In this document: positions 2,184 to 29,356 of the stretch, in pieces | Layout of the letters: each line of letters opens with the position of its first letter | Numbering within the stretch: the stretch's first letter is position 1 | Source of the DNA: Chitinophagia bacterium | Lineage (GTDB): Bacteria; Bacteroidota; Bacteroidia; Chitinophagales; Chitinophagaceae | Length of the DNA stretch: 39,319 bases | Assembly (NCBI GenBank): GCA_009920495.1 | Contig: RFZW01000007.1 | Coordinates: 1 to 39,319, forward strand | Direction of reading: 5' to 3' | The notes under the pieces: model-generated | The model's input: the letters and a program-made list of their open reading frames with translations, nothing else | Database searches by the model: none | Told to the model about the DNA's origin: nothing | Translations under genes and position numbers: made by a program

Positions 2184-3938
2184 TTACCAAGCGCGCAATG
2201 GTTTTACTTTTGGTGTTGCAATTGTCGATTTTGATCCAGGTATTAAGAATATATCAAAATCAACCTTAGTATTCGCAGGAACAATGGCTTCAAAGCCTAC
2301 TAGTATGGTGCCGGGATTCGGGGCGTCATAATCTCTTGGCGGAATTGTAGACCAGGTTTTCATCGTAATATTTTTTGCGCCTGATACTTTCAGCGTTAGC
2401 GTTTTACCCCCTTTTTTTAAGAGCGCTGTTTCAGGTCCAACTATTTCAACATCAGCGGGCGTAAGCATGGTCCATCTAACTTTAGTTTCATGATTTAATG
2501 TTTGAATTTCATCTCTTACAACAACATGATTTTTATTTACTATGGCTATACCGCGATCACTTGAAGCAAGTTGATTTTTATATACCGTACTCAAATCAAA
2601 TGTCACTTGCATGAAATTGGGATCCTTGTTATCATTTATAATGGGCGCATCTCCTTCAACCACCTGAAGTTGGCTATCAATAGTAAGTGTATTATGCGCA
2701 TAATTATTAAGTCTAAAAACATCCCATCTTTCAGAATTTTGTGTGCGCCCCCAAAGTTTAACCCCCTTGGACTCAAGTGATTCATAATCTTGCATTCCAA
2801 AATCCATAGCCCATCTTTGACCATCCGCATCCATGATGAAGGAGCCAATATCCATATGGGCATGATTGATTGAAGCTATTTGTCCTTTCCATAACATAAT
2901 AGCTGGCAATATCCTTTCCCTAACTAGGTTATCTGATTTTTCTATTTTAAGATAAGATTTTTCAACCCATAACAAGCTTGGATCCTTTACCTTATTCGCC
3001 AACCAAAACATTGCAGGATTAAATGAACCATTACCCCCCGCATCCGAATAATTGAAAGGCTTACCTGTGGTACCAGTCATGCTTTCCATAAAAGCAGCAG
3101 TTTGTAAAAAGCCAGGGGCTTTCGTCATGCCAAAGTCAGTACCATAAATTTTTTCAAGCGCACTTAGGAATAATACATTAAAAGTGGTTCCATAACCCCA
3201 ATAGCCATAACCCTCAGGATAAATACCATCAGGTCCATAATCCTTCATTGGAATTGCCATGGATTCAATTGCGCGATTAATAATCATTTTTGCCAATTTT
3301 GGATCTCGCTCATATATCGCCATAGCACCATAAGACATACTTGCATTACACACCTGATTCCAGTTGTGTTCGGCTTTTAACCAACTATTATTTTTACTAT
3401 CAAGCGATGGCTCAATTCCTTTTTTGATAATCGCATTTTGTATGGAATCTTTGGAGGTTTGAGAAAGTTGATCAAATAACCAATCATAACCAATGGACAT
3501 GGCCATAGTCATTTCAGCTACATCTAAAAAATGAGATGGATTCCAATCACTAAAACCTGCAATGACTAGCATTTCTTTTTCGGCCCTTACTAAATACTTC
3601 TGATCATTGGTCGAACGATATGCATAGGACAAATAAAATAATCTTTTTAATGCTTCCCTTGATTTGTCTAAAAGTCGTCGACCTATTTGTATTCTTTTTA
3701 TTGGGTCAATAGTAATGATGCGATCACTTTCCTTAATGATTGCATTATGCAACATGGACCATACTGGATCCTTTGTTATTGAGCTAACTAAATTCGCTTC
3801 CTCTCCTTTGAATAATAGTATTCTTGGATGTTGTTGTGTTATTTGTAAATCCTCTTTATTTTTTACTTGCGCAGTTAAATTATTTATGACAATCGAAAAA
3901 ATGATTGTGATAAATAGTTGCTTGAAAAGATGTTTCAT
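2184..3938 (-). CDS. Heparinase II/III-like secreted protein (polysaccharide-lyase-like)
   Basis: Signal peptide; HPRILLFKGEE, NWNQVCNASMSYGA, INHAHMDIGSFIMDADGQRWAMDFGMQDY, NNYAHNTLTI typical of the family. Possible internal in-frame gap (see findings). Confidence 0.8.
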   Translation of the reverse strand: MKHLFKQLFITIIFSIVINNLTAQVKNKEDLQITQQHPRILLFKGEEANLVSSITKDPVWSMLHNAIIKESDRIITIDPIKRIQIGRRLLDKSREALKRLFYLSYAYRSTNDQKYLVRAEKEMLVIAGFSDWNPSHFLDVAEMTMAMSIGYDWLFDQLSQTSKDSIQNAIIKKGIEPSLDSKNNSWLKAEHNWNQVCNASMSYGAMAIYERDPKLAKMIINRAIESMAIPMKDYGPDGIYPEGYGYWGYGTTFNVLFLSALEKIYGTDFGMTKAPGFLQTAAFMESMTGTTGKPFNYSDAGGNGSFNPAMFWLANKVKDPSLLWVEKSYLKIEKSDNLVRERILPAIMLWKGQIASINHAHMDIGSFIMDADGQRWAMDFGMQDYESLESKGVKLWGRTQNSERWDVFRLNNYAHNTLTIDSQLQVVEGDAPIINDNKDPNFMQVTFDLSTVYKNQLASSDRGIAIVNKNHVVVRDEIQTLNHETKVRWTMLTPADVEIVGPETALLKKGGKTLTLKVSGAKNITMKTWSTIPPRDYDAPNPGTILVGFEAIVPANTKVDFDIFLIPGSKSTIATPKVKPLRAW

Positions 3939-4039
3939 TATTATTATTTTTAATACACCACTAAAAAATGGAATTTTTTTTCCTTACCGAATTTAAGGGA
4001 AAAATTATAAAAATAACAAAACGAAATCCGAAGAAAAAT

Positions 4040-5518
4040 TTACCAAAGATAGGTCCCAACTGATCCTGGCTCCAAATAGGTGGTAGCCCATTTGCCGTTG
4101 TGTTTAATATTATATGATTCGGCAGTAGCGCCATCATTCAACACAATCAATACTATTTTCCCAGCGGGAGTTTTAAAGGCGACATTATATAAATTACCTA
4201 CATTATTTGTCCCAAGGCGTATAGAGCCAGCGGGTACAAATTTAGAAGCATGTGCAATAATATAATAGGACACGTTTCTCGTAACCACTGAATTGTCAAT
4301 AGTAAGTGCGCCTTTGCAGGAAGTGCATCCACCTGGCGTATGTGGATTATAAGATGGATCGCTCGCTAAATTCCACTCCAAAGCTACTTTGCTCCAATTA
4401 CGAGCCGAGCCAATCACCACATTTTTTGTATGCCATTTTAAATCGCCTGCAAATTCACCAGTGCCCGATGTCCACTGTTCAGTAAAATACAATCCCTTGT
4501 CTGGAAATGTATTATGTACTTGGGTTAACGCGCTAATATCTCCAGCATATAAATGAAATGCAGATCCAGTGACATAAGGATTTGTAGCAGCATCACTTAA
4601 AATGGATGTTGCATATTCTGGCTTATCACAATTGTGATCGTAAATGATAATTTTTGTTTTGATCCCTGCTGCAGCAAAAGCGGGACCTAAATGATTTTTA
4701 ATAAAATCGTTTTGTTGTGCAGCCAACATATACATACTAGGATTATTTCCAGGATGTAAGGGTTCGTTTTGAGGCGTGATTGCATCAATGGTAATACCAC
4801 TTTGTTTCATGACCTGAATGTATTTTACAAAGTATTGCGCATACACATTATAATACTGTGGTAACAAACTTCCACCCACCGATAACTTATTGTCCTTCAT
4901 CCAAAGTGGTGCAGACCATGGACTACCCATAATTTTGATATTAGGGTTGATGGCTATAATTTCCTTTAATAAAGGAATTAAATTAGTCATATCAGGGGAA
5001 ATACTGAACTTATTTAAATTAATATCTGTTTGATTCGTTGGTATATCATTGTAGGAAAAAACGGAAGCATCTAAATCAGACGCGCCAATACTTACTCTCA
5101 AATAATTAATTGAAATTGAATTTGTGCTTTGACCAAATAACTCTTGTAATAAATCTTTTTTTGCAGCAGATCCTAATTGATTAATCACTTGGGCGCTTCC
5201 CCCAGTCAAGGTATAGCCAAAGCCTTCCATTTCCTGATAAGTAGTAGCATCATTAATTTCAACACTATTGTAATTATTAAATGAAGTGCCAAATTTTAAT
5301 ATCGCTGATTGCTTTTCTAATTTAACAGATTGATCTGATTTTGTTAACCAGAACTCAATATCAGTAACCACCGGCGTTGGCGGCACCACAACAGTCGGTA
5401 TCACAGCTGCTGTGCTTGATGGCGAACAATTTAAAATGGAGATGCCTAATAAAAACGTTGCCATCAATTTCATTACCAAACAATTTTTTAATTTAGTCGA
5501 ATTCATTTTTCTATACAC
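4040..5518 (-). CDS. GH30 family glycosidase (beta-1,6-glucanase/glucosylceramidase-like), lipoprotein
   Basis: MEGFGYTLTGGSA, LRVSIGASDLDAS, GSPWSAPLWMK, acid/base context TPQNEPL, nucleophile context YFTEQW; lipobox-like ILNC. Confidence 0.88.
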   Translation of the reverse strand: MYRKMNSTKLKNCLVMKLMATFLLGISILNCSPSSTAAVIPTVVVPPTPVVTDIEFWLTKSDQSVKLEKQSAILKFGTSFNNYNSVEINDATTYQEMEGFGYTLTGGSAQVINQLGSAAKKDLLQELFGQSTNSISINYLRVSIGASDLDASVFSYNDIPTNQTDINLNKFSISPDMTNLIPLLKEIIAINPNIKIMGSPWSAPLWMKDNKLSVGGSLLPQYYNVYAQYFVKYIQVMKQSGITIDAITPQNEPLHPGNNPSMYMLAAQQNDFIKNHLGPAFAAAGIKTKIIIYDHNCDKPEYATSILSDAATNPYVTGSAFHLYAGDISALTQVHNTFPDKGLYFTEQWTSGTGEFAGDLKWHTKNVVIGSARNWSKVALEWNLASDPSYNPHTPGGCTSCKGALTIDNSVVTRNVSYYIIAHASKFVPAGSIRLGTNNVGNLYNVAFKTPAGKIVLIVLNDGATAESYNIKHNGKWATTYLEPGSVGTYLW

Positions 5519-7661
5519 TATTTCTTCAACTCAAAACTTTCTTTCAATCTTATGTCTTCAGAAGACGACCCTATCATCAAATCAAAATCTGTAGGCGCTG
5601 CATCCCACTTTAAATTAGCATTGTAAAAAGATAACTTTTCTTTATTGATGTTAAATTGAATTTTTTTACTTTCTCCTGGTTGTAACATAATTTTTTGAAA
5701 ATCTTTTAACGCTTTTACTGGCATCACTACTGAAGCGTGTTTGTTGCGCAAATACAACTGTACGATTTCCGATCCTGCTAATTTTCCTGTATTGGTTAAT
5801 GTGAAGGTAACAGCAATTGAATCCTTCATATTCATAACTTTTTTACTTAATGCCAAATTAGCATAAGAAAAACTAGTATAGCTCAAGCCAAAACCAAAAG
5901 GAAATTTTGGAAATATACTTTCATCCAAGTAGGATGAATTGTAAATATGATTGTTGTCGTCAGTAGCAGGACGTCCCGTATTAAAATGATTATAGTAAAT
6001 AGGAATTTGTCCCACACTCATAGGAAAGGTCATCGGTAACTTAGCTGAGGGGTTATAATCGCCAAATAATACATCCGCAATGGCATTGCCAGCTTCACTT
6101 CCAAGCCACCATGTATATAAAATAGCAATAATTCCTCTTGCACTCCTGGTATATTAATATTACTTCTGCTTTTTGCTTCACCACTCATATCCCTTTTTTC
6201 ACCAATACTTAGTATCACTACATCCGCTTGGTTAGCAACAGCTACTGCTTCACTAAATCCTGCTTTGTTATCTCCTTCTATTTCACAGCCTTTGGCATAC
6301 AATAAGCTAGTTCCCGGCCCTACTTTATTTTGTAATCCTTCCCATTGTGAAACAATAAAATTGGAATCGACTGTTGGAATAGATACATCCCAAAAGCCTT
6401 TATTTTGTAATAAAGATTTTACCAATGGTCCAACAAATGCAATTTTTTTCAAATTTTTTGAAAGTGGTAAAATATTATCATTGTTTTTAAGTAGTACAAT
6501 GCTTTTTGCAGCCATTGATCTTGCGGCTGCGATATGTGCAGGATTATTCAATGCAGCAGCTTCGCGCTCATTATTTGAAAACTTATAAGGGTCATCAAAT
6601 AAGCCCATTTCGAATTTCTTAATCAATATTCTTTTAACTGCATCATCAATAAATGCAATGTTTATTTTTCCTTCTTTAACAAGTTGCGTTAAATTATTTT
6701 TATACGCCCTACTTTCCATGTCCATGTCCGTGCCTGCATTCATTGACAATAAAGCTGCTTCTTTCGCATCTTTTGCATAACCATGGTTAATTAGCTCACC
6801 TATTGAGCCCCAGTCACTCACTACAAATCCTTTAAAACCCCAGTTTCCTTTTAAAATTGTTCTTTGTAAATAATTATTGGCTACTGCAGGAATACCATTG
6901 ATATCATTAAATGAATTCATGAAACTTGCAGCACCCGCATCCACCGCGGCTTTGAATGGAGGCAAGTATATTTCCCATAATTGCCTTTCACTCATATCCA
7001 CCGAATTATAATCTCGACCACCCACTGCAGCTCCATAGGCTGCAAAATGCTTTACACAAGCCATTAAAGTATTTGTATCCCCTAAATTTGTTCCTTGAAA
7101 TCCTTTTACCCTAGCTGCACTAATTAAGGATCCTAAATAAGGATCTTCTCCTGCGCCTTCCATCACGCGTCCCCATCTTGGATCACGTGCAATATCCACC
7201 ATTGGCGCAAATGTCCAATGAATACCGCTTGCACTTGCTTCAGTAGCAGCAACACGCGCCGATAATTGAATTGCAGGCAAATCCCAGCTTGCTGCTTCGG
7301 CTAATGGAATAGGGAAAGTGGTTTTAAATCCATGTATAACATCCTGCCCAAATAATAATGGAATTTTTAATCGCGACTGCATGGCCAGTTTTTGCCAGCT
7401 TCTTGTACGTTCGCTACCAATGGTATTTAATAATGAGCCTACTTGGCCATTTTTAATTTGATCAATTTTATTATTATCAATCGTAACTGGACCAGTTGCC
7501 TGATTGTCGTCATTGTATTGATTCAATTGACCAATTTTTTCATCCAAGGTCATTAATCGTATAACCGAATCGGCTTTTTGAGTCAATGACTTTTTTTGTG
7601 CGATGCACTTGTTTGAAAAAACGAATGTCAAAAAAAGTAATCCAAATATTTTAAATCTCAT
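5518..7661 (-). pseudogene. GH3 beta-glucosidase (BglX-like), split by an apparent internal deletion/frameshift
   Basis: ORFs 6030..7661 and 5518..6033 are the two halves of one GH3 (WTFAPMVDIARDPRWGR, VVSDWGS, KSIVLLKN / FPMSVGQIPIYYNHFNTGRP, PFGFGLSYTSF). Frame changes between EELL and AILYTWWLGSEAGNAIADVLFGDYNPSAKLP. Confidence 0.85.
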
Positions 7662-7688
7662 TTGTTAAATATTGTAACGAATAATAAT

Positions 7689-7740
7689 GCAGTATACTGC
7701 GCTACTATTTATTGTAAATAGAGAATAGTGAGTTACTATT
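7689..7740. repeat. Three consecutive small inverted repeats in the GH16-GH3 intercistronic gap
   Basis: GCAGTATACTGC (7689-7700), CTATTTA-ttg-TAAATAG (7705-7721), AATAGT-gagtt-ACTATT (7724-7740). Confidence 0.6.
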
Positions 7741-7766
7741 TAACGGAGAAAAAACTTACAAGAAAA

Positions 7767-8834
7767 TTATTGATACACCCTTACATAATCCACTTCCATC
7801 ACGCCACTTGTAAATGCAGGATCAATAGCACCTCCAAGGTTACCACCCATGGCTACATTAAAAATGAAGAAAAAGTTTTGATTAAACGGCATTGTTGCTT
7901 TATTTGCAAAAGTATAAAACACTACATCATCAACATAAATTTTAATACTGACATCAGTCCACTCTAAAGTATATTTGTGAAATGCAGTTGTTGCATTGTT
8001 GATCATGGTAGTAGCCCCATCCGCATTACCTCCAGAACGACCTGGGTAGTGCAATGTGCCATAAATTTTATTTAATGAATTGCCTATGTGCTCCATAATA
8101 TCTATTTCGCCACAGGCAGGCCATCCAGCTGAACCAAAATTATCGCCAAGCATCCACAGTGCAGGCCATGTTCCGCCTCCAGCTGGTAACTTAGCACTTA
8201 TATCCACCTTGCCGTATTTAAATGAAAATTTACCTTTGCTTAATAATCTCGCCGATGTATAATTACTACCACTAAATGATTCTTTCAATGCGGTAATTTT
8301 TAATGTGCCGCCAGAAACAATCGAATTGGTAGTACGATTTGTATAATATTCTTGTTCGTTATTGCCCCATCCACCTGATCCTGTTCCTATATCATAGCCC
8401 CATTTATTAGGATCTGGCGCGCTTGCAGTTGCAGCATCAAACTCATCGGACCAAACTAATGACAATGAAGTTGTCACGGTTACCACCGTTGTTTTTGAAG
8501 CCGTTGCACCACTCGCGCTTTTAGCTACTACACTTACCGTGTATACGCCTGATGTGGCATATTTATAAGTTAAATCTCCTGTTACTGAAACTTGATCCTT
8601 GATGCCATTGCCTAAATCAAAAGTATACATCACTGCATTTGTTGCAGCTGCTTTAAAAACCACATTACCTGAGGTTCCGCTAACGGTTGCATCCAAACTT
8701 AAATTAGTAGGTGCTGTGGAAACGGGTGTAGGCGTATCGCCCCCCTTGCCGCACGAAGTAAGTGCAGCAAGGAGAAGGATAAACAAGACACTAAAAAATT
8801 TCAACCTTAATATAGACTTTGAAAACATCATCAA
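7767..8834 (-). CDS. GH16 endo-beta-glucanase (laminarinase-like) lipoprotein with N-terminal PKD-like domain
   Basis: GH16 catalytic motif EIDIME (GEIDIMEHIG), WPALWMLG, VDYVRVYQ C-terminus; PKD-like GVYTVSVVAKS; lipobox-like LTSC. Confidence 0.92.
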   Translation of the reverse strand: MMMFSKSILRLKFFSVLFILLLAALTSCGKGGDTPTPVSTAPTNLSLDATVSGTSGNVVFKAAATNAVMYTFDLGNGIKDQVSVTGDLTYKYATSGVYTVSVVAKSASGATASKTTVVTVTTSLSLVWSDEFDAATASAPDPNKWGYDIGTGSGGWGNNEQEYYTNRTTNSIVSGGTLKITALKESFSGSNYTSARLLSKGKFSFKYGKVDISAKLPAGGGTWPALWMLGDNFGSAGWPACGEIDIMEHIGNSLNKIYGTLHYPGRSGGNADGATTMINNATTAFHKYTLEWTDVSIKIYVDDVVFYTFANKATMPFNQNFFFIFNVAMGGNLGGAIDPAFTSGVMEVDYVRVYQ

Positions 8835-8838
8835 GTTT

Positions 8839-9765
8839 TTATAATGCTTTTAATTTTAAATACCAAGCGTTACCTGTTTCTGTACCTTGTACTCTTAAAT
8901 ACATTGCGGTCGCAGATATAGATAAAATTTCGTATTCTTTTTGCAATGAACCATAACCAATGAAGGTGTTGGTTCCAGCAAGCAATATACTAGTTCTTGT
9001 TGAATTTGCAGCAGGAACTGCTGTACTTGCAGGTATGAACGAAAAATTACTTGTTCCGCCAGCATACGCGTAACAACCTTCATCACCAGAACCAGGGATT
9101 CCTGCTAAAGTAGCATTACCACCAGTTTTAGTAAACGCACCATCAGGTGTAGTTACTTGTAATGTATAGCTTGTTGCACTCACTGCAGTAAACTTAAATC
9201 CAGCAGTATAAAAACAAGGTGCAGCGGTAACTTTTTCATTTACTGAAGCAGCCCACCACTCTGGAACAATTGATCCAGACCATGGACCTACGCCAAAATG
9301 ACCAGCAACACTTTTATCAACAATCCAAGTTTTAGATGACCCTCCAGTTAGGTTAGCAACTACGGCAGCGTCAGGCGTAAAATTACTTTGTACAGTAACA
9401 TCTTTTGTAATAGTAGTAGAGGTGCCTCCACGGCCATAGGCTACTGCAGTTACTTTATACGTATTTGTACCAAGTGTTGTATATTTTTTAGTAGTAGTAC
9501 CTGTTGGTAAATACACTAAGTCTAATGCATTGGTTGCATCGTAATCAATTTTATATGATAATGCATTGTCAGCAGAAACAGTGAATGTAACGTCACCAGA
9601 ACCATCTCCGTTTGGAGTTGCTGTGGTAACACCTTTCACTACTGCAGTGATCGCTAAGTTTGTAGGCGCTTTTAAATCACCTAAAACATATTCTTTTTCC
9701 TTACATGACGACAATAAAATTGCCGTTGCAAGAAAACTTAAAAATAATTTTGAAATATTTTTCAT
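8839..9765 (-). CDS. SusE/SGBP-like outer-membrane lipoprotein
   Basis: Lipobox-like ILLSSC; Ig/PKD-like N-terminus then KTWIVDKSVAGHFGVGP region; located between susD-side genes and GH16. Confidence 0.65.
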   Translation of the reverse strand: MKNISKLFLSFLATAILLSSCKEKEYVLGDLKAPTNLAITAVVKGVTTATPNGDGSGDVTFTVSADNALSYKIDYDATNALDLVYLPTGTTTKKYTTLGTNTYKVTAVAYGRGGTSTTITKDVTVQSNFTPDAAVVANLTGGSSKTWIVDKSVAGHFGVGPWSGSIVPEWWAASVNEKVTAAPCFYTAGFKFTAVSATSYTLQVTTPDGAFTKTGGNATLAGIPGSGDEGCYAYAGGTSNFSFIPASTAVPAANSTRTSILLAGTNTFIGYGSLQKEYEILSISATAMYLRVQGTETGNAWYLKLKAL

Positions 9766-9776
9766 TGTGTTTTGGT

Positions 9777-10895
9777 TTATTTGGTTAATCTAAAATTGTC
9801 TACGTAAATAACTGCTCCTGCACCATCTACTGAATCATTAAATCGTAAAACCAATTGTGTGAATTTTGTTCCATCAGGAATAGCAGCGATACCGCTAAAA
9901 TCAAATACCAATTCCTCCCAAGCACCTGATGTAGTTACTGGCACTTTTAAAACAGCAACACCATTGGATGGTTTACCGCCAATTGCCCATTCTAATTCAA
10001 CATTTAATTTAGCACCGATTAACGCAGCATCAGGATTATATACCAACACTTTAATTATTTTACCAACGCTAAAATCAATTGGATTGTTTGGAGCGCCCAT
10101 TGGGCTATAAGTACCACTCCATCCTTCCCAACCTCTTGTGAACTTTCCTACTTTCGCACTTGTATTTAAACCAGTAGCGCTAGGGTTTGCAACTGTTGCA
10201 AATCCTTGACCACCACCAAAGGTTCCAAAGAAATAATTAACAAAAGCATTTTCAAAATCCAATGGCAAACCAAATGGATCAGTAACCACAATTGCATTTG
10301 TTTTTTCAGTTTTAGCAGCACCACCACTTAAAGCAACCACTTTTACATTATAGTTACCTGAAGTTGCATAAGTATGTTTTACTGTCGCACCAATTGCCAT
10401 TGGAGTTCCTACTTCATTAGTTACATCACCAAAGTATACTAGGTATGATGCTGCATATAATGATGTAGCAGAAACTGTCAAGTCGTGCACGTTTTGCGAC
10501 ATACTCACTGCTAAGTTTTCAGGAGCGCGGTAAGTAACTGCTAAAGGATAAGTAGTAGTCGTTGTTTTACCAGCGATATCTGTAGTTAAAATAGTAACAG
10601 TATAAGAACCTTCTGGATACACATGTGTTGCGTTTCCACCTGGCGTTACTGTAGCTGAAGCTGCAGCACCTGTTCCATGTCCGAAATTAATAGTGTAAGA
10701 AGAAACGCCTTCTCCAGTTGGAGAAACTCTTACTACACCAGAATTATCTGTACTGATCGTAAATACTTTTGCTAAAGCAGAAGACGATGCAGAATTTATA
10801 AAAGACAAATCGCTATCGATCCCGTCTTTTTTTGTACATCCTGTAGCCAAAACCAACAGGAATGCAATGCTGTATAGAAACTTTATTTTATTCAT
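9777..10895 (-). CDS. PKD-domain surface glycan-binding-like lipoprotein with C-terminal CBM-like beta-sandwich
   Basis: Lipobox-like LATGC; two PKD-like repeats (YTINFGHGTGAAASATVTPGGNATHVYPEGSYTV; VKHTYATSGNYNVKVVA); C-terminal VIYVDNFRLTK. Confidence 0.65.
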   Translation of the reverse strand: MNKIKFLYSIAFLLVLATGCTKKDGIDSDLSFINSASSSALAKVFTISTDNSGVVRVSPTGEGVSSYTINFGHGTGAAASATVTPGGNATHVYPEGSYTVTILTTDIAGKTTTTTYPLAVTYRAPENLAVSMSQNVHDLTVSATSLYAASYLVYFGDVTNEVGTPMAIGATVKHTYATSGNYNVKVVALSGGAAKTEKTNAIVVTDPFGLPLDFENAFVNYFFGTFGGGQGFATVANPSATGLNTSAKVGKFTRGWEGWSGTYSPMGAPNNPIDFSVGKIIKVLVYNPDAALIGAKLNVELEWAIGGKPSNGVAVLKVPVTTSGAWEELVFDFSGIAAIPDGTKFTQLVLRFNDSVDGAGAVIYVDNFRLTK

Positions 10896-10909
10896 TGTAT
10901 AGTTTTTTA

Positions 10910-12427
10910 TTAGTTATACTTAGGATTTTGTACCAATAACGTGCCTTGTAATTCAGAATAAGGAATTGGGAAAATTTCATCTCTTCCAGCAACAAAACCT
11001 CTAGATGCTAATTTTGCTGCAGCTTCATTCCATCTTACTAAATCAAAAAAGCGATGTCCTTCACCAGCCAATTCTAATCTTCTTTCTGCTTTAATAGCAG
11101 CAAGTGAAACTGGCGTTGAAGCCAAACCAACTCTTGCTCTAACAGCATCTAATAAAGCTTGTGCTCTTGCACCTGTTCCACCCAAGGCTTCTGCTTCCAT
11201 TAAATAAGTATCAGCTAAACGAATTACATACGTGTCTTGCTTGAAGTTTAATTCTTGAGATCCACCACCTGTTCTGATATCCGCATTTCTTGGTAAAAAC
11301 TTATTCAAGAAATACCCAGTATTTTGGTAGCCATCAATATAATCAGCTTGACCAGCAGCTTTTAATGCTTTCAAATCAAATACTGTTGCTGCAAAACGAG
11401 GATCCCCTTTAATTGCATCATAAAAGTTTTGAGTGAATACGTTAAAGCTCCATCCTGAAGGTAAACCTGGTGCAGGTGATCCAGCAGGGGTAGAATAACT
11501 ACGAGGTCCTACCATTACATTCACTGTATTTCCCTCATCACGGCCGCTTCCCCACCAACCCCAATCGGAGTTACCAGCACTGCTATGACCTACTTCCAAA
11601 ATTGATTCAGAGTTGAATTTGTTATTAGTAACCCATAAGTCACTAAAGTTGCTTAATAACTTATATCCGTAACTACTAGCAGATCCTGGCGTTGCACCAT
11701 TTACATCCGCTAATTGAGCAGCAGCTAAAGCGCCTTTGTTTTCAAACAATAAAACTTTTCCTAATAAAGCTTTTGCAGCACCTTTTGTAAAACGACCCGC
11801 TTCAGTTGTAACCGAAACAGTTGTAGGTAAGGTAGCAATGGCCTCATTTAAATCCTTTTCAATTTGTGCGTACACAGAATCGGATGTAGTTTGTTTTACT
11901 TTGTACATGCTTGCAGCAGATACTGGCTCAGTAATCAATGGAATGTTCTTAAACATTCTCACCAAGTTAAAGTAGTATAATGCTCTTAATGCTTTTGACT
12001 CTGCAGCAAATCTTGCTTTCAAAGTTGCATCCATTGTAGTAGTAGGTAATTTTTGTAACAAAGTGTTGGCTCTGAAAATACCTTGATAATGATCGCTCCA
12101 AAAACTTCCTGGAACATTTAATGCAGTTAATGTGTGATTTGAAAATGCTTGAATTCCAGCACCATCAGTTGCACCACCACCACCAGCAAAATGATCATCT
12201 GAACCTGCGTTCATCATGGTAATCATGTTTTCAAAACCGCCAGAATTTTTGCGAATCGCATCATATACTCCAACAAGGCCTCCGTAGGCTTGTGTAGCAT
12301 CTGCGTAATAGTTTGCTGTAAGGAATTGACCTTTAGGCGAAACATCCACAAATTCTTTTTTGCAAGCGCCCAATGATAATATCAAGGCAACTGCAACAAG
12401 TAGGTTATTAATTTGTATTTTTTTCAT
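10910..12427 (-). CDS. susD: SusD/RagB-family nutrient-binding outer-membrane lipoprotein
   Basis: ILSLGACKKEFVDVSPKGQF; FNLVRMFKNIPLITEPV; ERRLELAGEGHRFFDLVRW near the C-terminus. Confidence 0.95.
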   Translation of the reverse strand: MKKIQINNLLVAVALILSLGACKKEFVDVSPKGQFLTANYYADATQAYGGLVGVYDAIRKNSGGFENMITMMNAGSDDHFAGGGGATDGAGIQAFSNHTLTALNVPGSFWSDHYQGIFRANTLLQKLPTTTMDATLKARFAAESKALRALYYFNLVRMFKNIPLITEPVSAASMYKVKQTTSDSVYAQIEKDLNEAIATLPTTVSVTTEAGRFTKGAAKALLGKVLLFENKGALAAAQLADVNGATPGSASSYGYKLLSNFSDLWVTNNKFNSESILEVGHSSAGNSDWGWWGSGRDEGNTVNVMVGPRSYSTPAGSPAPGLPSGWSFNVFTQNFYDAIKGDPRFAATVFDLKALKAAGQADYIDGYQNTGYFLNKFLPRNADIRTGGGSQELNFKQDTYVIRLADTYLMEAEALGGTGARAQALLDAVRARVGLASTPVSLAAIKAERRLELAGEGHRFFDLVRWNEAAAKLASRGFVAGRDEIFPIPYSELQGTLLVQNPKYN

Positions 12428-12462
12428 GTGTTTATATTTTTATCAATTTTGAATTTTTGAAA

Positions 12463-15400: not shown

Positions 15401-15589
15401 CCCTGTGCATTTGTTTTAGTTCGTGTAGCACTGCCTGTAATTGAGACAGTTGCGTCACTTAGCGCTGTACCAGTTGCTTTGTCTTTCACCGTACCAGAGA
15501 CCTGAGACCTGTAAGGACTGTCCCATGGCTTGGTTAAAGATGCTACATACTAGAAGTATCGCACCAAGTACAAAAAGTTTTGGATTCAT
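12463..15589 (-). pseudogene. susC: SusC/RagA TonB-linked outer-membrane transporter with N-terminal frameshift
   Basis: Large in-frame body 12463..15489 (plug GSISRVSAKDLANIPNGRVEQSLQGRVAGV, TonB-dependent C-terminus). Signal peptide MNPKLFVLGAILLVCSIFNQAMGQSLQVSG starts at 15589 in another frame and stops at 15455 because of a 7-bp tandem duplication. Confidence 0.9.
15497..15510. repeat. 7-bp tandem duplication GAGACCTGAGACCT (AGGTCTCAGGTCTC on the coding strand)
   Basis: Read directly; removing one copy gives SLQVSGTVKDKATGTALSDATVSI in one frame. Confidence 0.95.
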
Positions 15590-15662
15590 AACAATCGTTT
15601 AGTTAATTTAATTAAAATAGCGATATAAAATTGAGCATTCTTACTGATATTATACATAATAC

Positions 15663-15746
15663 TACTACATCATTACTACATCAATACTACAATTTTAACT
15701 TAAAAAGGTATAAAATAAGCTTTTTTGATACTTCTCTACTACATCA
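15663..15746. promoter_or_regulatory. Direct repeats TACTACATCA in the susC/regulator intergenic region
   Basis: TACTACATCA at 15663-15672, 15674-15683, partial TACTACAAT at 15685-15693 (11-bp spacing), and a full copy at 15737-15746. Confidence 0.7.
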
Positions 15747-15760
15747 CAAAATTTTTATAT

Positions 15761-15768: not shown

Positions 15769-15792
15769 GGTTAACAATTGTTCGCCTAATGA

Positions 15793-18543: not shown

Positions 18544-18579
18544 TAGGAATATGCTACTTGATATTTCATGCAGCTATGC

Positions 18580-20493
18580 TTACTGGTATTTCTGCATGAT
18601 TTTTTTTCCTAGTTCAACGCCATCCACATTGAATAAAAATTGTGCAGGCAATGGGGATGGATTGTAATAAGTAATTCTTTTTTTAAGATTCAAGTCCGCC
18701 TTTACCCCTAATTTACCTTGTGGTGTTATCACTGATACATCCACAATGCCCGCATTATTGGTAACATTACATTTGGCATTAAGTACAGTTGCCCTAAAAT
18801 TGGCAAATGCAGCATTAGTGGTTATGCCCTCTGCTGTTTTCCACCACATGGCAATGGTCGCCTTACCATTTTTCGAATGTTTTAATGTCATTCGAATCAG
18901 TTTATTATTCGTTAACGAAAAGTTTTCACGAGATGCCTTGTATTCAAATCCATCATTAATGATACATGCCACTTCATTAGTAGGCGCATCCTCATATAAA
19001 ATTTTAAAAGCAACCACAACATCCTCAAATTTTACAAAAAGTGTTTTTGTACTATCTAAGCCAAGCTGGCTGCCAATGGTTGGAACTGCCATTTTTTTAT
19101 TGCCAATCCAAACTTCATTAAAAACATTAGGTAACAAAATAGTTGAATTTAAATAATCCTTGATACTATTATGGTCCTTTTGCCCTGACACCAACATGAC
19201 AAACTCATTTTTATTTTGAGCAACCTGCATAAATGGCATCAAATGTCTTGTTTTACCCCAGCCGCCGTTTAAGGGATAATTTTTGGTTTGTAAATTTAAA
19301 AATTTATCGCCCCAGCCTTGTGCACCCCATTGACCATAATGATCATCACGTCCTTCCATGACATAGGTTATATTTGCCATTGCAGGAACCGTTTTGCTAC
19401 TTAAATAAATAACAAAGGTTTTGTCATCTGGGCTATATGTTTGATTGGAGGACGCTATGGCTAATTTTTTTCCAACATACTCGGTCGCATATGCGTTCGG
19501 AAAACTATCCCACTTTTGTATGATATATTTATTTTGTCGGTACATTAATTCCTTTTGTTGTGGGCTTAATCCGATTTCCTTTAATCTAGCAAAACATACT
19601 TGATGAAATAATTGATTATTATTATTGACTTTCCCTAATAAGGGATTAAAATATTTTTCTTCTAGCAAATCTCTCGCAAATGCTCGGTTATAATCTCTAC
19701 TATGTGCGCCTCCCAAAAATCCACCCAATGGATTATAATGCGAACAAAAATCAGTCAAAAATAAATTCAACAAATCTGCAGTCTTGGTTTGAATATCCTT
19801 ATCTTTTGCAAATTGCGAAAGTAATAAAAGCGACTCTAAATCAACGCCTCCATAGGTAGGACTGTCATACTCTCTATTTCCATAGTTTGCAATATGCTTT
19901 ATAAATATATTAAGATACGCTCGGCCTTGTTCTAAAACTTCCGGCTTATTATATACTTGGCCAAGTGCAATTAAGTTCCAAATACGCATTAAATATATAT
20001 TGGTATAGGAAACGCGCACATTGGCTCTAGTTATTCCACTTAAAGCATAATCAAATATAGTATCAAGCGCTTTTCGACTTCCAGCAGATAACTGATTATC
20101 ATATAACAACTTGATAAGAATACCATATTGTACGCAAAATTCAACATTATTATTATCCTCAACTATATTTTTAGGATTTACCCAGCTCCAATAAATATTA
20201 CCATAATTAAAATCTTTGGGATTTGTAACAACCCGAGTAATCATTTTATTTAATAGCCACTCAATGTCGTTTTGATTAAATTGTTTTGTATCCATTGCAT
20301 CTAAAATGAATAAAAAACAATCACGCAATCCCAATTTAGGTATGGGCTGATGCAATAGGTCCCATTTTTCTTTCAATAATGCTACTCTAGCTGTAGGATT
20401 TGCTACTGCTGGAACTTTGTAACCATTAGTTTGTGCAGTTGAAAAATTTGCAAATAACAAAATGACTATTAAACCGATTACAATTTTTTTCAT
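18580..20493 (-). CDS. Secreted protein of unassigned family, possibly an (alpha/alpha)-barrel lyase/hydrolase
   Basis: Likely start MKKIVIGLIVILLFANFSTAQ; helix-rich first ~400 aa with GGFLGGAHSRDYNRAF, then a beta-rich region (YVMEGRDDHYGQWGAQGWGDKF). Family not recognised with confidence. Confidence 0.6.
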   Translation of the reverse strand: MKKIVIGLIVILLFANFSTAQTNGYKVPAVANPTARVALLKEKWDLLHQPIPKLGLRDCFLFILDAMDTKQFNQNDIEWLLNKMITRVVTNPKDFNYGNIYWSWVNPKNIVEDNNNVEFCVQYGILIKLLYDNQLSAGSRKALDTIFDYALSGITRANVRVSYTNIYLMRIWNLIALGQVYNKPEVLEQGRAYLNIFIKHIANYGNREYDSPTYGGVDLESLLLLSQFAKDKDIQTKTADLLNLFLTDFCSHYNPLGGFLGGAHSRDYNRAFARDLLEEKYFNPLLGKVNNNNQLFHQVCFARLKEIGLSPQQKELMYRQNKYIIQKWDSFPNAYATEYVGKKLAIASSNQTYSPDDKTFVIYLSSKTVPAMANITYVMEGRDDHYGQWGAQGWGDKFLNLQTKNYPLNGGWGKTRHLMPFMQVAQNKNEFVMLVSGQKDHNSIKDYLNSTILLPNVFNEVWIGNKKMAVPTIGSQLGLDSTKTLFVKFEDVVVAFKILYEDAPTNEVACIINDGFEYKASRENFSLTNNKLIRMTLKHSKNGKATIAMWWKTAEGITTNAAFANFRATVLNAKCNVTNNAGIVDVSVITPQGKLGVKADLNLKKRITYYNPSPLPAQFLFNVDGVELGKKIMQKYQ

Positions 20494-20585
20494 ATAACAC
20501 TTAAATTGAAGCACATTAATAATGCGCCTCAAGTTAATTAAATATCTTTAATAATGATTACCGCTACTGTATATAGTGCATCAGT

Positions 20586-22910
20586 TTAATTGCGATTTTT
20601 TTTCAAAGTACTTTCCTTGTGATTTTTTTGAAGCCCCCACCATTGTGTGTCAAAACTTGTACTTTTAACTGGGGTTATGGCAGCGCTTGGAAAGTTTTTA
20701 TGGCTAATTGTAATTACTTCTCCCACTTTAGTATTAAGCGTGATATAGGATTTATTTTGCTCCTCTTTTAATTGATAAATGGATTTACCCATATTGGAAG
20801 CGATATTTAAAGCAATTGCAGGAATAGTTGTAACAATAGTAGTAATTCCACCTTTTTCACTTTTAACAATCACAACTGCAGTTTTACTTGACTTGCGCGC
20901 AGCGCTTACTAAAAAAGCCCCTTCTGCACGCAAATTTTCAAAACTTGCTTCCTCCCAAGCATCTGGTATTGCAGGAAAAACTTGAATGATTGGCTCCTGA
21001 CTTTGTAATAACATTTCTAATAAGCTATTGGTCATGCCATGGGGCGTTTCAAAACAAGGTCCCGCTTCTGCATATAAGCCATTCACTTCAGCATGTTTTA
21101 ATAAAAAGGTATCTAAAAAATTATATGCTAAGTTGCCTTTATTTAATAAGGAAGCCATTGATGAAGCAGCTACATAGGAATACCCCCTGAACTTTTTATT
21201 CATTGAAATCCAATAATTAGTGGATTTGTTTGCAATTGCTAAGGAAGCTGAATCAGTTAACGAAACTTCACGATAAGGGTAAATCATCATTAAATGTGAA
21301 AAATGGCGATGTCCAGTTAATAATTCTTTGTCCTTCCCAATTAAGTACCCCTTTTCATTGGTATAATAAGGTGGCAAATGGATTAAAATTTCTTCCCATT
21401 TTTTTCTGTCCGCATCATTGGATTTAAGTAACCGGTCTGTATTAATTAAAGTTTTTAATCCCCATTTTAAAGCACTTAAACTATAATGTGCATCTACCGC
21501 ATCGCTGTATTCTGGCGAAAATGAATTTACCAAATGATAAATACCTTGATCATCCTTGTTTAGTAAATGAATTAAAAAATTGACCGATCTTTTAAGTAAT
21601 GGGAATATGCGCGTTTGTAATTCATTGGTATCTTTCGAATATAAAAAATACTTATGGTAATAAAATAAAGCCCAAGTTAAATTACCAGGTTCAAATTTTC
21701 CATTTTCAATTTCTTCGTTTAATACAGGTGAATGTAAATCGTAGGATGAAATTCGATTAACAGCAGCTGCATCATACTGCCATTTCGCTGGGGCATTTTT
21801 AATTAATGTATTTTGATTGTTATAAAACGCATCAAACAAGGACCTGCCTAATTCCAAATGATTCGAAGCAAATACGGACGAATAAGCCAATTGTGTATTT
21901 AAGTTCCACCAAATAGCAGGCCAAGGTGTTTTACTTTTATACCATGGACCCATCAAATCAACCATGGGCTTACCTGCTCTGGTAGCGGATGCCATATTAT
22001 ATTGCTCCATCCAATAATATCCTTGCATTCTAGCATCGGGAATGGAAATAAAACTTTGTTTTGTAAAATTATGCCACCAATTGCGATGATTTTGTAAAAC
22101 AGCAGATTCCCCTTTTTTAATATAGTTATTTATAAATTGAATAGCTTCTGCAGTGGCACTTTTATTTATCGCAACTTCATTTCCCACGGCAATTAATAAT
22201 ACACTGGTATCTATTATTTGCTTTACCTTATACACTGTACTATAGCCATTGCTATATAAAAGTGGTTGATGACAAATATGATATCCTGCAGAATCTTTTT
22301 CTATAAAGGATGGATTATACTGATAATCTGTAATGCCATTTTTTTTACTTTGGGAAGTAATTCTTGGCGAAATACTTTCTTCTCCCACCCATTGCCATTG
22401 TATATTTTTTTCATCTGCTGTCCCATACACTTTTACTACAATAACATCTTGTCCTGTTGGAACGTATGCGAAAAAATGAATGGTTCCTTTGGTTGTTTTT
22501 ATAGTTCCAGTACTTTCCGCATTGTAAATATCCAATTGCATATCAGCAGATAAAATTGCTCCATTTGTATTTAATAACATTTTTCCAATGGGTAAGCGCG
22601 GTCTTGATAATAATTGTTCAAAGGCAACCGTATCCGAATTATGTGGTCGTTGATCAGTAACATCTGATCTCCCGATATCAAATCGAATCGCTTGATTATT
22701 TTCCTTATAAATATTTGTACCTAGCTGCCCGTTGCCTAAAAGTATACCCGTATAATAATTATCACTAATCGAATCCCATTTAAGCATTTGCGCTTGCATA
22801 AACGATTCCCATTGAATATTATTATTGAATGATTGTGAATATCCTTGTATACTAATGCATATAAAAAATATACATACTCCTATTTTAAAAAAATTATTAT
22901 AACTGTGCAT
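20586..22910 (-). CDS. GH95-like secreted glycoside hydrolase
   Basis: Signal peptide; N-terminal GILLGNGQLGTNIYKENNQAIRFDIGRSDVTDQRP; barrel region WPAIWWNLNTQLAYSSV, EPGNLTWALFYYHKYF, HRHFSHLMMIYP. Confidence 0.65.
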   Translation of the reverse strand: MHSYNNFFKIGVCIFFICISIQGYSQSFNNNIQWESFMQAQMLKWDSISDNYYTGILLGNGQLGTNIYKENNQAIRFDIGRSDVTDQRPHNSDTVAFEQLLSRPRLPIGKMLLNTNGAILSADMQLDIYNAESTGTIKTTKGTIHFFAYVPTGQDVIVVKVYGTADEKNIQWQWVGEESISPRITSQSKKNGITDYQYNPSFIEKDSAGYHICHQPLLYSNGYSTVYKVKQIIDTSVLLIAVGNEVAINKSATAEAIQFINNYIKKGESAVLQNHRNWWHNFTKQSFISIPDARMQGYYWMEQYNMASATRAGKPMVDLMGPWYKSKTPWPAIWWNLNTQLAYSSVFASNHLELGRSLFDAFYNNQNTLIKNAPAKWQYDAAAVNRISSYDLHSPVLNEEIENGKFEPGNLTWALFYYHKYFLYSKDTNELQTRIFPLLKRSVNFLIHLLNKDDQGIYHLVNSFSPEYSDAVDAHYSLSALKWGLKTLINTDRLLKSNDADRKKWEEILIHLPPYYTNEKGYLIGKDKELLTGHRHFSHLMMIYPYREVSLTDSASLAIANKSTNYWISMNKKFRGYSYVAASSMASLLNKGNLAYNFLDTFLLKHAEVNGLYAEAGPCFETPHGMTNSLLEMLLQSQEPIIQVFPAIPDAWEEASFENLRAEGAFLVSAARKSSKTAVVIVKSEKGGITTIVTTIPAIALNIASNMGKSIYQLKEEQNKSYITLNTKVGEVITISHKNFPSAAITPVKSTSFDTQWWGLQKNHKESTLKKNRN

Positions 22911-22993
22911 ACTTAAATATTATATACAAATATGCTATAAAAATATTAACAAATTGATTAATCTGGATCATACTTTATCTATTAAATAAATAT

Positions 22994-23001
22994 TACATTT
23001 G
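22994..23001 (+). promoter_or_regulatory. Bacteroidetes-type -7 element TACATTTG upstream of GH16
   Basis: Matches TAnnTTTG, ~20 nt before the ATG at 23022. Confidence 0.45.
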
Positions 23002-23021
23002 AATTAGCTAATTTAATTTTT

Positions 23022-23912
23022 ATGAAAAATAAAATCGCCCTGATTTCTTTTGTTGTCGCAATACTTTTCATTTCAAGTACAGTTGTTTACAAAAAGCATT
23101 ACAAACTTGTTGATGGTTACATGCTAGTTCAAAATGAAAGTAGGCGTAATGAAACTACCCAATGGGAATTAGTGTGGGAAGATGATTTCAATAAAGGTGC
23201 ACTTGACACTAATAGATGGTCACGTATTGATCTTTTCACTTCACCTAAATGGCAAACACCTATTGATAAATGGAGATCAGCAACAGGGTGGAATAGATAT
23301 ATTACAAGTACCAATAATGAAGTAGTTACATTTGACAAAGACAATATTTACTTAAGGGGTATTGTGAATAATGATACGATTAATGGCGATCCTCGCCCAA
23401 TGCTTACCGGCGGTATATATAGTTGGAAGAAATTTGCCTTTCAATATGGTCGTATTGAAATTAAAGCAAAATTGGATGCTGCTTATGGTTCATGGCCTGC
23501 CATTTGGATGATGTCTGAGAAAGATATTTATCCCAATCAACATAATGGCGAGATGGATATTATGGAAAAATTAAATCACGATGCATTTGCTTACCAAACT
23601 ACCCATAATCATTATACCATTACATTAAAACAAGAAACCCCTAAAAAATTTAATACAGGTAAAATAGATACGAGTGGTTACAATATATATAGTGTAAGTT
23701 GGTATCCTGATAAATTGGTGTATGCCATCAACGGTATTGAAACTATTACCTATCCCAAAGTGCCAGGTGCAGGCACGTACCAATGGCCATTTGATCAACC
23801 ATTTTACTTGATGATTGACCAGCAGTTAGAAGGTAGCTGGCCCGGGAAAGTCACCAACCCCAAAGAACTACCTATCAATATGGTAGTGGACTGGGTTAGG
23901 TTATATCAATAA
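23022..23912 (+). CDS. GH16 family glycosidase (beta-glucanase-like), single catalytic domain
   Basis: N-terminal hydrophobic anchor; catalytic motif EMDIME; WPAIWMMSEKD; MVVDWVRLYQ C-terminus. Confidence 0.92.
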   Translation: MKNKIALISFVVAILFISSTVVYKKHYKLVDGYMLVQNESRRNETTQWELVWEDDFNKGALDTNRWSRIDLFTSPKWQTPIDKWRSATGWNRYITSTNNEVVTFDKDNIYLRGIVNNDTINGDPRPMLTGGIYSWKKFAFQYGRIEIKAKLDAAYGSWPAIWMMSEKDIYPNQHNGEMDIMEKLNHDAFAYQTTHNHYTITLKQETPKKFNTGKIDTSGYNIYSVSWYPDKLVYAINGIETITYPKVPGAGTYQWPFDQPFYLMIDQQLEGSWPGKVTNPKELPINMVVDWVRLYQ

Positions 23913-23920
23913 ATTACTGC

Positions 23921-26267
23921 CTACAGCTTAATTTCACTAAGTGTAACCCCCAATAGTTTTAGTGTTAAAGCATTTAAATCTGTATCATTTCCTTTTAAGT
24001 GTATCGTTTTTTGAATATGCATTTGTGTGTCACCTGGCAACAAAGCCATTGCTGGAGATGACCCTTCTAATTCATAAAACTTACCCATTTGTTTGCCATC
24101 CACCGGGCCATCTGTATAGGCATTTAACGCATCGCCTTTAAAGGGTTCGGATTGCATTTGCCATAATGAATTTACATAATCGGTTTTGCCTTGAGGCAAA
24201 GTAAACTGTATAATAGTTAACACTTTATTTTCTGCATCATAACTAGCCGCCATTGACGTTGCGCGTAATGGCGAAATGCCTATTTTACTTCTTTGCTTTG
24301 CATCTGCTTTAAATAACAAGTGTCCATTTTTTACTTGTAATCTGGTGGTATCTAATTTTCCGAAATAATCATCAGTTACAATTTTTCCTAACTTAGTTTC
24401 ATCTCCATGTTGGTAAGGAACAAAAACAGTGGTATGATCATTCGCTTGCAACATACTCAATACCCATATGGATAATTGACCTGTATTTTTGGTCCAAGGG
24501 AATTGGCCTATATTTTTTACTTTGTTTTCTGTTTCAAATCCAACCGCCTTTATCGAAGCGCCCGTTTTCACACCAAGGGCATTGGTAATATTTTCACTGC
24601 TTAATAATTTTATTTTTCTATTTACTTCCAAGTCAAATGGGGTGCCCGAATAATTTAACAAATGAATTTTCTTATTAAAAACAGCCTCCGTGTTTGTTGT
24701 CGCTATTAAATCAAAGCCTTCGGTATCAAGGCTTGGCGGTACATACCAATTTTCAAACTTGAATTCAGTATTGGGTTTAAAATAAATAGAGAATTGCCCA
24801 CCTTCTGGTCCTAACCAAAATCTTTCTTCGCCCCCAAAGGCATTAAAATGAGGCGTTAGTTTATTTGCTGCAATTAAATCATGGTTAATCCATCCAAAAC
24901 TAAATCCCTTTTCACCTTCGGCCGTACTAGTCATTACGCGGCCTTGGTATTTTGGTAATACAATTAAAGAAGCATCTCCGTTTTTTAACAACACTAAATC
25001 CTTGTGGTATTTTTTTAAAAAAGCGAGGTCGTAGCCAAATGAACCTTTTTTATTTTCATCCGCGACGCTTACTTGGGTATTTAAATTATTAAAGGGCTTG
25101 TCTAGATAAAAATAGGCGGTTGAAGCCAACTCATCAGTTCGATAAAAATTCATTCCAAAATTTTTGTTATCAAAAAATGGATTGTTGATGCCTCCTTCAA
25201 AACTGGTATCTAATAACCCATAAGTAATAGGTGGGTTGCCCTTTAAATTAAATATATCACTGCCAAGGCGACCGCCTTCTTGTTTAATGAAAAAAACAGG
25301 TTTAATATTTGCGCCATTTTTTATTAGTGATCTAATTTTTTCAACAGAACTGTTCCCAATTTGCTGAATGGTCACTTTGCATTGACTTTGAAAATAAATT
25401 GGATCAGGTACATGATATCTATAAAAACAATACTCCCCTTTTTTATCATCTGAAATTTTGGCCCCATCCTGAACCAATATAATCTTCCGTTCCTGTGCCT
25501 GAAAGTGAGGGTAATTTGCTATCCCCATCTAAATACACTTTCACTTCCCCTTCACCAAACCAGGTATCTCGTAACATGCTATCACTTACAACTGAAATAT
25601 TAGTCCCAATGAATCGTCCTTTACCATTGATCGTAGGCAAAATTTCAAAATCCTTGCCCAGCGTTGTTTTTGCTACATGATGCCAATAGGCATGAAAATA
25701 CATAGCATCATCAGGTACTTTTTCTGAAGTATAATTTATGTCATACCATATGAGTGCATGTGAACTTGATTCATTGATTAAAACAATTTTTGCTGATTTC
25801 CGAAATGGCATTGGTATTGTAAAATTAAAAGAGCGTCCTTCTGGATTGGAAAACATTGCATTTTTGTATGCTTTTGATTTTCCCAGTCCTAAACCAAAAA
25901 AATCACCAATGGGTGCTGAAACTGCGGGTTTTTTACTTCCATCCCAATACATTTCAATGCGCACATGCTGCATTTGTTCGCTCGATCTTGGAATTGTTCC
26001 GCTTAGCCACATGCGTCTCACGATTCCAGCGCCAGTAGCATCTAATAAATTAATTTTTTCGCCTGCTTCTAAAGTAATAAATGCACGCCCCTTAGCACCC
26101 TTGTTTGTTACGCCCGCACTGCCTTTGGCTCCTGTTGGATTTTCAGGACTTACCCAAATCGATTTGATTTGATTTGAGGGTGCTTTGTATAATTCCTGGG
26201 CGAAAGTTTTTGAAACGAATGTGTTTATCACAAAAAATAAGACCAATAAATGCAGGTTGTTTTTCAT
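23921..26267 (-). pseudogene. DUF2961 (GH172-like) protein, frameshifted, joined to a DUF6786-like C-terminal region
   Basis: ORF 25446..26267 has the DUF2961 N-terminal part (SPENPTGAKGSAGVTNKGAKGRAFITL, LSGTGTEDYIGSGWGQ). ORF 23921..25528 resumes with DDKKGEYCFYRYHVPDPIYFQSQCKVTIQQIG, then LPKYQGRVMTSTAEGEKGFSFGWINHDLI and FGGEERFWLGPEGGQFSIYFKP (DUF6786-like). Confidence 0.75.
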
Positions 26268-26276
26268 AGCTTAAAT

Positions 26277-26768
26277 TTAACAACAATTAGGTGAACCATC
26301 ACATGATTTTATAACGGCTTCAGTAAGGCCTCTTTGAATTTCGATTTCAGTGGCCTGTCGAATAGATACTATTTTTATATTATAATGTAAGGTCGCTCCG
26401 GCAAATGAATGATTCGCATCCACCAATATTGTGTCCTTGTTTTTTTGCAATAATTTTGCTTCAGTGCCATCAGGTATTTGAATAAAACTGCCAATTTCAA
26501 AATCGTTAATTGTTTCAAATAAAGAATTGGGGTATGTTTTAATTAATTTTTCATTTATTGCGCCGTAAGCATGTTGTGGAGGTAAAGTAATTTGTACTTC
26601 ATCCTTTACTTGGTGACCTTCCAGTGCATTTGCGACCATTGGAAAAATAGCAATAGCCCCATGTACATATTCCTCTGGTTCAAAATCGAGATTTGAAAAC
26701 ACCTCGCCTTCCTCATCCACCGAAATAGTATAATGTATGCCTACAACTTTATTTTTTTCAACTTGCAT
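26277..26768 (-). CDS. SlyD-like FKBP-type peptidyl-prolyl cis-trans isomerase
   Basis: MQVEKNKVVGIHYTISVDEEGEV, insert-like middle, FAGATLHYNIKIVSIRQATEIEIQRG; Cys-rich tail SCDGSPNCC. Confidence 0.8.
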   Translation of the reverse strand: MQVEKNKVVGIHYTISVDEEGEVFSNLDFEPEEYVHGAIAIFPMVANALEGHQVKDEVQITLPPQHAYGAINEKLIKTYPNSLFETINDFEIGSFIQIPDGTEAKLLQKNKDTILVDANHSFAGATLHYNIKIVSIRQATEIEIQRGLTEAVIKSCDGSPNCC

Positions 26769-26769
26769 T

Positions 26770-29329
26770 TTAGCTGAGGTTAACTTTTAGTTCCTGGCCT
26801 TTCTTTAATTCAACTTTATTTTCAAAATGAAAAGCAAAGCTTTGGCCTTCCTTCATCATTTTTGCCTTTACCAACTTGGTTCCGATATAAATCTTAGCTG
26901 TAGTAACAGGCGCTTTGGCGTCAAGGGTAATTTTATTTAAAAACAAACTGCCATATTTAACTTTTAGTATGGCAGAAAAGTTTTTTTCACTTTGTAGTTG
27001 TTCATAGGAGCCCCAAGAAGTTGCTGATGTAAAAGGAACTTTACATTTATCTGTATTTAATTTTGGGGCAAATTTTATATACCCATTCGGCCCATCATAA
27101 TCAAAGCCACATGCAGAAATAAAAGTACCATAACTCGCCATTGCGCGTGCATAGTGATCACTGCATTCTATTTCATTGAATGGATTTCGTTTTCCTGCAT
27201 AGTATCGATCATGTATCATCCTTGTTAAAATAAGTGCTTCATCGGTCATACCTTCTGCCATCATATGTGAAGCCACCTGATGTTCAAAGCCACTCATACA
27301 TTCATGGAACTCTTCGCTCCTTAATATAAGGTCCAACATCAGGGGTGAAATTATATTTCCATAATGCCTTAAGCGCTGAAATTGTTTTTTCTTTGTCAAT
27401 GATTCTGCCTAAACCAACCTGGTGTGCCCAACTTTGTCCATACACCTGATCAATATGACAGGTATTATAAGATCCTAATTTTTCTCTTCCTTTAATTTCA
27501 TCTGGTTTATGAATAAAATATTCGCCATTGAAAAGTTGCGCCTCCATGTTTTTAGTTCCATTGCTTACATAAGTGGAACAAATTTTAGCAAATCCGGTAT
27601 CTCCCATTTCTATGGCCATTTGTTCACTCGCTTTTACCGCCGCAATACACATGCCTACCAACCAAGCTATTTCACCATCCCAAACGGCATCTAATGTATT
27701 TTCAATCGGGGTATCTTCCATGCCATCCCCATTTTTATCCTGATTTAAAACCCAGGTGGTTGCTAACTTTATTTTATCCCAATTTTTTTGTAAAAATGTT
27801 TTATCTGGTGACATTTTATGCTCCCTATATATTCTTAATATCGTACCTGCCTGTCCATCTATCGCAGGTGTTTTCACCACTTCACCACGATACAACATCA
27901 TCCCATCTGATTTCAATGACAAACCTAAATCAACGCGTTCCCTTGTATCTCTTTCAATCGCAGGAAAAATGCGACCCATGGCTTGTGCATATTGCCACAC
28001 ATGTGTGCAGGTTCCCTCACAACAACCTACGCCTTCCCAAGCATAAAATCTGCCTGATTCAAAACGGTGGGCTGTGGTTGTGGCCAGTGTTGAGATATTT
28101 AAAAAGGTACGTTCTAAAAACCACCATGGTAATGTTGAATCATACCATGTTTGTCGCCACAATGCTGTTTGTGTTGAAAGTGCTGTAAAATTTGCAGCTA
28201 CGTATTTTACAACTTCAACTGCAGTTTTAAATTGTTGGTTATAAAAACGTCCTTTGCCCTGAATGACTGGATTTAAAGTTAAATTAGCAAAATGCCATGC
28301 AAGTATATAGTTTGCATTAATAGTTTGACCGCTTTTAATAACATGATTTGTGCAAACTGAATTCATTAATGGTCCTGCTGACACTAATTTTTCAGTAGGT
28401 AATAAAATTTCTTCTGAAAACGAGGAGGAAGAAAGTGGTAAAGAAAAGGAGGTATTGACGATACACTTGCTGTTAATCGCTCCAATAGCCATCGTACCAT
28501 AATCTGCTTTCTTATCCTGATTTTCAATACCATTCAATTTAATACTACTATTTAAAATTGCGGAACCATTATTTTTCTCAGCTGTATTTAATCTTATATC
28601 TGTTTCTTTTTTTGATTTTGGCGATACTTTATTTTCTAACCAACCCAATAGGGAAACATTGATGTCATTCTTTGTTTTATTTTTTATTGAAAATGAATAA
28701 ACCGTACAAGGGAGGCCTGAGTTTCTCTCATCCAACGGAATAAAAGGAGAAAAAATATCTGCTGTAATATCCAAGCCTAAACGATGATCAATATAATGCA
28801 GCTTTGCCATCGGGTAAGTGGCTTCAAATAAAATTTCATCCCAATCTGCTGCTTCTAATTTTTTTATAATTATATTTTTCCCGGATAAAATTTTAAATGC
28901 AAAGCCTTGTTCAAGCGGTCTAATATTTTTTGCTGGTTGTACATATGCAGATCCATCTTGCGGACGTACTTTTTTTCCCACATGTAAATCTGATTCCCAT
29001 TCAATGGTCTTAGGATCAATCCCATTTTGGTTTTCATTAAAAATATCCCATAACCAAAGCCTTCCATCACCGCCTAAGTAAACAGTACCAGTGAAAATAC
29101 CACCGATAGGCATGCCAATATACTGTAACTCATTTTTTGTTTTTTTATAAGTAGTCACAAATCCCCGATGATATAAGGACTTGATCCATTCCGGATTTAG
29201 TTTTTTATCAAGAGGTATATTATGCAATAAAGGCGATTGCACAAATGGACCTGCGATGGCTTTCAGCGGTGTATGATAAATACCTGCAGCTAAGAGTCCT
29301 GAATTTTGAATAAATTTTCTTCTTTCCAT
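26770..29329 (-). pseudogene. GH116 (GBA2-like) glycosidase with Tat-like signal, frameshifted by an apparent internal deletion
   Basis: MERRKFIQNSGLLAAGIYHTP Tat-like leader; PIGGIFTGTVYLGGDGRLWLWDIF, EGTCTHVWQYAQAMGRIFPAIERDTR, KYNFTPDVGPY; other frame continues FHECMSGFEHQVASHMMAEGMTDEALILTRMIHDRY..RNPFNEIECSDHYARAMASYG. Confidence 0.85.
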
Positions 29330-29356
29330 AACGATCAATTAGAATATTATTCTTTT

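Follow-up and report, generated by a model that had tools for sequence, protein, structure and literature searches.

The small deletions and the short duplication that break genes along a beta-glucan PUL in the window analysed here (39,319 nucleotides, contig C305 in full) are, as judged from comparison with related genomes, very probably errors of a draft MAG, that is, contig ends joined unmerged or with the gap between them dropped, and not the marks of a decaying pathway. The lesions themselves, how widely they occur across the genome, and the fact that essential genes carry them were all observed directly. The MAG (hereafter designated G000) comprises 2.29 Mb in 348 contigs and is 78% complete, and the closest relatives of the window are lake-type Chitinophagaceae MAGs of the Sediminibacterium type, foremost G025 (isolate UBA8137) and G015 (isolate F1-60-MAGs052).

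Alignment to close relatives in which the genes are intact (G025, G015, G111, G129, and G033) confirmed that the lesions are truly in the contig sequence, at or a few bases from the positions given in a first-pass annotation (Table 1). The GH3 gene, whose counterpart in G025 is a 745-aa open frame, lacks 91 bp that are present in three relatives, and susC, represented in G025 by a 1042-aa open frame, carries a 7-bp tandem duplication (CAGGTCT / AGACCTG), the second copy of which is missing from three relatives. Relative to G025, G111, and G033, the deletion in the sensor-regulator gene has removed about 50 of the first 70 codons. The GH116 gene of the relatives is one open frame of 890–895 aa (n = 3), and the 107-bp stretch lost here is kept in all of the approximately 20 relatives having DNA aligned on both sides of the junction. 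These five events, including the deletion in the DUF2961 gene, had been proposed in the first-pass annotation from the sequence of the window, as non-3n deletions in the case of GH3, DUF2961, and GH116. The in-frame loss that it suspected in the heparinase-like gene also proved real: several relatives match residues 1–356 and 350–584 as two separate stretches, and the loss amounts to 42 codons as computed from the coordinates of G089. The separate loss suspected at the DUF2961/DUF6786 junction, on the other hand, dissolved into the first one, because both Pfam domains lie on a single 790-aa ORF of G015 that is split here by the 32-bp deletion, and no second event was seen. The deletion in the AraC-family gene, whose N-terminus is intact in G015 and G025, had been overlooked and lies outside the range that the annotation covered. 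Gaps common to close relatives, also raised there, were checked for, and none of the window deletions was common to any relative examined, which rules out shared ancestral gaps. The missing GH116 and GH3 stretches were not found elsewhere in the assembly in a search for misplaced segments.

Table 1 Features of the window and the lesions that they carry.
Feature	Position	Strand	Evidence
Heparinase II/III-like gene, 126-bp in-frame loss at about 2865-2903	2184..3938	-	Pfam Hepar_II_III_C; split matches in relatives
GH30, full length	4040..5518	-	Pfam Glyco_hydro_30 and 30C
GH3, two ORFs through 91-bp loss at 6127	5518..7661	-	Pfam; DNA alignment, three relatives
GH16 with PKD domain, full length	7767..8834	-	Pfam
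Two surface-glycan-binding-type lipoproteins and SusD	8839..12427	-	Pfam PKD_4, SusD_RagB (8839-9765, no Pfam match)
SusC (TonB-dependent receptor), frame broken at 15505-15512	12463..15590	-	Pfam; three relatives
Reg_prop / Y_Y_Y / LuxR-type sensor-regulator, 146-bp 5' loss at 15794	15787..18543	+	Pfam; alignment to G025, G111, G033
Accessory block: 650-aa protein (no Pfam match) and GH95	18580..22910	-	Pfam
Second GH16, full length	23022..23912	+	Pfam
DUF2961-DUF6786 fusion gene, split through 32-bp loss at 25457	23921..26267	-	790-aa G015 ORF; alignment
GH116, split through 107-bp loss at 27309-27315	26770..29338	-	Pfam GH116; open frames of relatives
AraC-family gene, 37-bp loss at about 33830	32730..33956	-	Alignment; Pfam HTH_18

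The first-pass annotation had read these breaks as the decay of the PUL. On such a view, beta-glucan use would have been lost in the lineage and the genes would be gathering small frame-breaking deletions. Breaks do fall in the genes for the transporter, the regulator, and the exo-enzyme alike, as this reading would have it, and the breaks occur in no relative. We surveyed about 590 kb of the G000 contigs, of which about 84 kb were aligned at the DNA level to G025. Relative to G025, we counted 5 clean deletions of 30–200 bp over 26.7 kb of the window and 7 over 57.7 kb of the other contigs. The rates of 1.9 and 1.2 per 10 kb, respectively, are similar (binomial p = 0.32 for an excess in the window), and lesion density was not significantly raised in the locus. 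Outside the window, the losses fall in thrC (threonine synthase, twice), ccoG (cytochrome oxidase accessory), recF, kpsF (arabinose-5-phosphate isomerase), and an esterase-like gene, and one removes the 3' end of pfkA (6-phosphofructokinase); lesions are thus found genome-wide whatever the function of the gene, as an artefact would predict. Moreover, the unbroken PUL genes have full-length frames highly similar to those of relatives (SusD is 98% identical in G025), whereas a decaying locus should also show nonsense and single-base changes.

The same kind of lesion was found in core genes. Five long essential families were looked up in G000. In dnaE (G000:C69:12900-17200), the match passes from one frame to another at C69:13883/13885 and about 17 model positions are lost; in ileS (G000:C338:3797-6416), the split between frames falls at C338:5106-5110 and about 26 model positions are lost. 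No break was seen in rpoB and rpoC within the matched parts present on contig C27, and valS is cut off by the end of a contig. From what is generally known of dnaE and ileS, an organism whose sole copies of them were so broken would not be viable; the breaks therefore belong to the assembly, although second copies may lie in the 22% of the genome that the MAG lacks. Essential genes are not intact in the assembly that carries the broken PUL. On the genome-wide rate and the essential-gene breaks, we reject decay of the PUL, which we regard as very improbable. The first-pass interpretation is partly supported overall: its claim of decay fell, and the evidence favours the alternative that it had itself allowed for, namely a fault of draft or metagenomic assembly with the same appearance.

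If the breaks are spread over the genome, they might instead reflect real pseudogenisation of the whole genome, of the kind seen in lineages that are confined to a host or have recently passed through a bottleneck. Most of the lesions are indeed not multiples of 3 (11 of 14 losses; the 14 are the 12 from the comparison with G025, of which 11 are not multiples of 3 when the AraC-family deletion is counted as 37 bp, together with the 75-bp loss in thrC and the 126-bp loss in the heparinase-like gene), a fraction about as expected from random lengths. This explanation is even less credible than decay of the locus, however, since no cell could survive breaks in the only dnaE and ileS that were detected and since sister genomes of the same genus have far fewer lesions. 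In the reverse direction, losses in G025 of sequence that G000 has were rarer (2 events versus 12). In a search for frame changes, with the sister pair of G025 and G033 as the control, ORFs of G025 gave none in 72.7 kb against the near-finished G033 and 8 in 76 kb against G000, and ORFs of G033 gave 4 in 79 kb against G025, most of them at or beside N-gaps of G025. With few exceptions, furthermore, the lesions of G000 are gaps some tens of bases long, not mixed with stops and 1-bp indels as real pseudogenes would be. We give almost no credence to a free-living lake Bacteroidota truly carrying genome-wide frame-breaking deletions, essential genes included, and surviving by message repair or recoding.

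The junctions point to the assembly as the origin of the losses. Overlap at the junctions averaged 1.0 bp against an expected 0.89 (13 rows, one of them mis-registered); no repeat or homology beyond chance was present, as expected for an artefact, and slippage between direct repeats is ruled out by the same figure. There was no clear excess of mismatches of the sort that error-rich contig ends would leave: mismatches amounted to 10–13% within 15 bp of the junctions and 8–11% farther away, with the one mis-registered row inflating these figures. The deletion lengths (32–188 bp) match the lengths of the N-gaps in G025 (2–188 bp; KS p = 0.99), and no N was found in the 587 kb of readable sequence of G000, three short contigs being wholly masked. 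Together, the chance overlap, the G025-like gap lengths, and the lack of N fit contig ends that were joined with the gap dropped. The sister MAG G025 itself contains 24 N runs of 2–188 bp in 341 kb, a size range like that of the losses in G000.

Presumably, every several kb, contig ends flanking a short unassembled stretch (about 30–190 bp) would have been joined directly, so that the dropped bases vanished without an N run, and ends that overlapped slightly may have been joined unmerged to yield a short tandem duplication, such as the 7-bp one in susC. The pipeline step that would have caused such joins is a guess on our part, because common assemblers do not usually join ends directly with no N between them.

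The artefact might also have taken the form of a strain-mixture consensus, in which pieces of coexisting strains would be stitched at points of divergence and the stretch between them lost. At the DUF2961 junction, the 105 bp to the left (window 25353–25457) are 100% identical to the MAG Ki3-D2_bin-0726 and the right side is 92% identical, an identity step that possibly reflects two stitched strains or recombination. This is a single junction at a contig end, however, and the identity to G025 shows no step at most junctions, so that we consider a strain mixture rather unlikely, if well ahead of either biological explanation. Elsewhere in the assembly, contig C1 was poorly conserved and repeat-rich in a 20-kb DNA search, and pieces of about 150 bp at G000:C1 ~7750-8410 and 16670-17000 recur in many copies on the contigs of several sister genomes, C7 of G033 in particular.

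Some observations weigh against the assembly-error reading: the rate in the window is nominally above that outside, the DNA-level comparison with a close relative spans only the roughly 84 kb given above, and neither rpoB nor rpoC shows a break in its matched parts. That faulty assembly gives rise to many spurious pseudogenes in bacteria has been documented by Cooley and Wright (2024; PMC11017572), with assembler, platform, and coverage as causes. As in their cases, the frame-broken genes here cluster in a single assembly, and near relatives lack them; unlike in those cases, the lesions of G000 are mainly losses of 30–190 bp at joins, and the genome is a MAG.

Apart from the breaks, the locus is a beta-glucan PUL of an ordinary kind, of the freshwater Sediminibacterium type. 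By Pfam matches, it contains a SusC/SusD pair, two surface-protein genes, GH16, GH3, GH30, and a Reg_prop / Y_Y_Y / LuxR regulator, and the GH30 and both GH16 genes are full length, as the first-pass annotation had stated. The combination of a SusC/SusD pair with GH16, GH3, and GH30 is that of a beta-glucan PUL, the substrate of which we take to be a beta-glucan of the laminarin or mixed-linkage type. Bacteroidota PULs for such beta-glucans likewise have SusC/SusD, PKD-type surface proteins, GH16, GH3, GH30, and a regulator adjacent to susC, and, once the artefacts are discounted, nothing in the present locus is unusual beside them, the regulator here being of the Reg_prop / Y_Y_Y / LuxR type. 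Beyond the PUL comes an accessory block that contains GH95, the second GH16, DUF2961-DUF6786, an FKBP-type (SlyD-like) isomerase, GH116, DUF3500, and a sulfatase. Within 18580..22910, no lesion was seen, most of this stretch having no near relative for comparison. In G015 (C34, segment 1–1120, against window 18543–23927), the 650-aa protein, most of GH95, and the second GH16 are missing or fragmentary between the regulator and the DUF6786 gene; the accessory block, being reduced or absent there, thus differs among species.

Collectively, the lesions exist in the file but almost certainly not in the living cell. The public draft genome G000 carries about 1–2 hidden joins per 10 kb, mostly frame-breaking and with no N marking them, and claims of pseudogenes, gene loss, or pathway decay made from it are unsafe; comparison with the closest relative, junction overlap, and essential single-copy genes together offer a quick general screen for such genomes. 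In the living bacterium, the PUL is probably intact.
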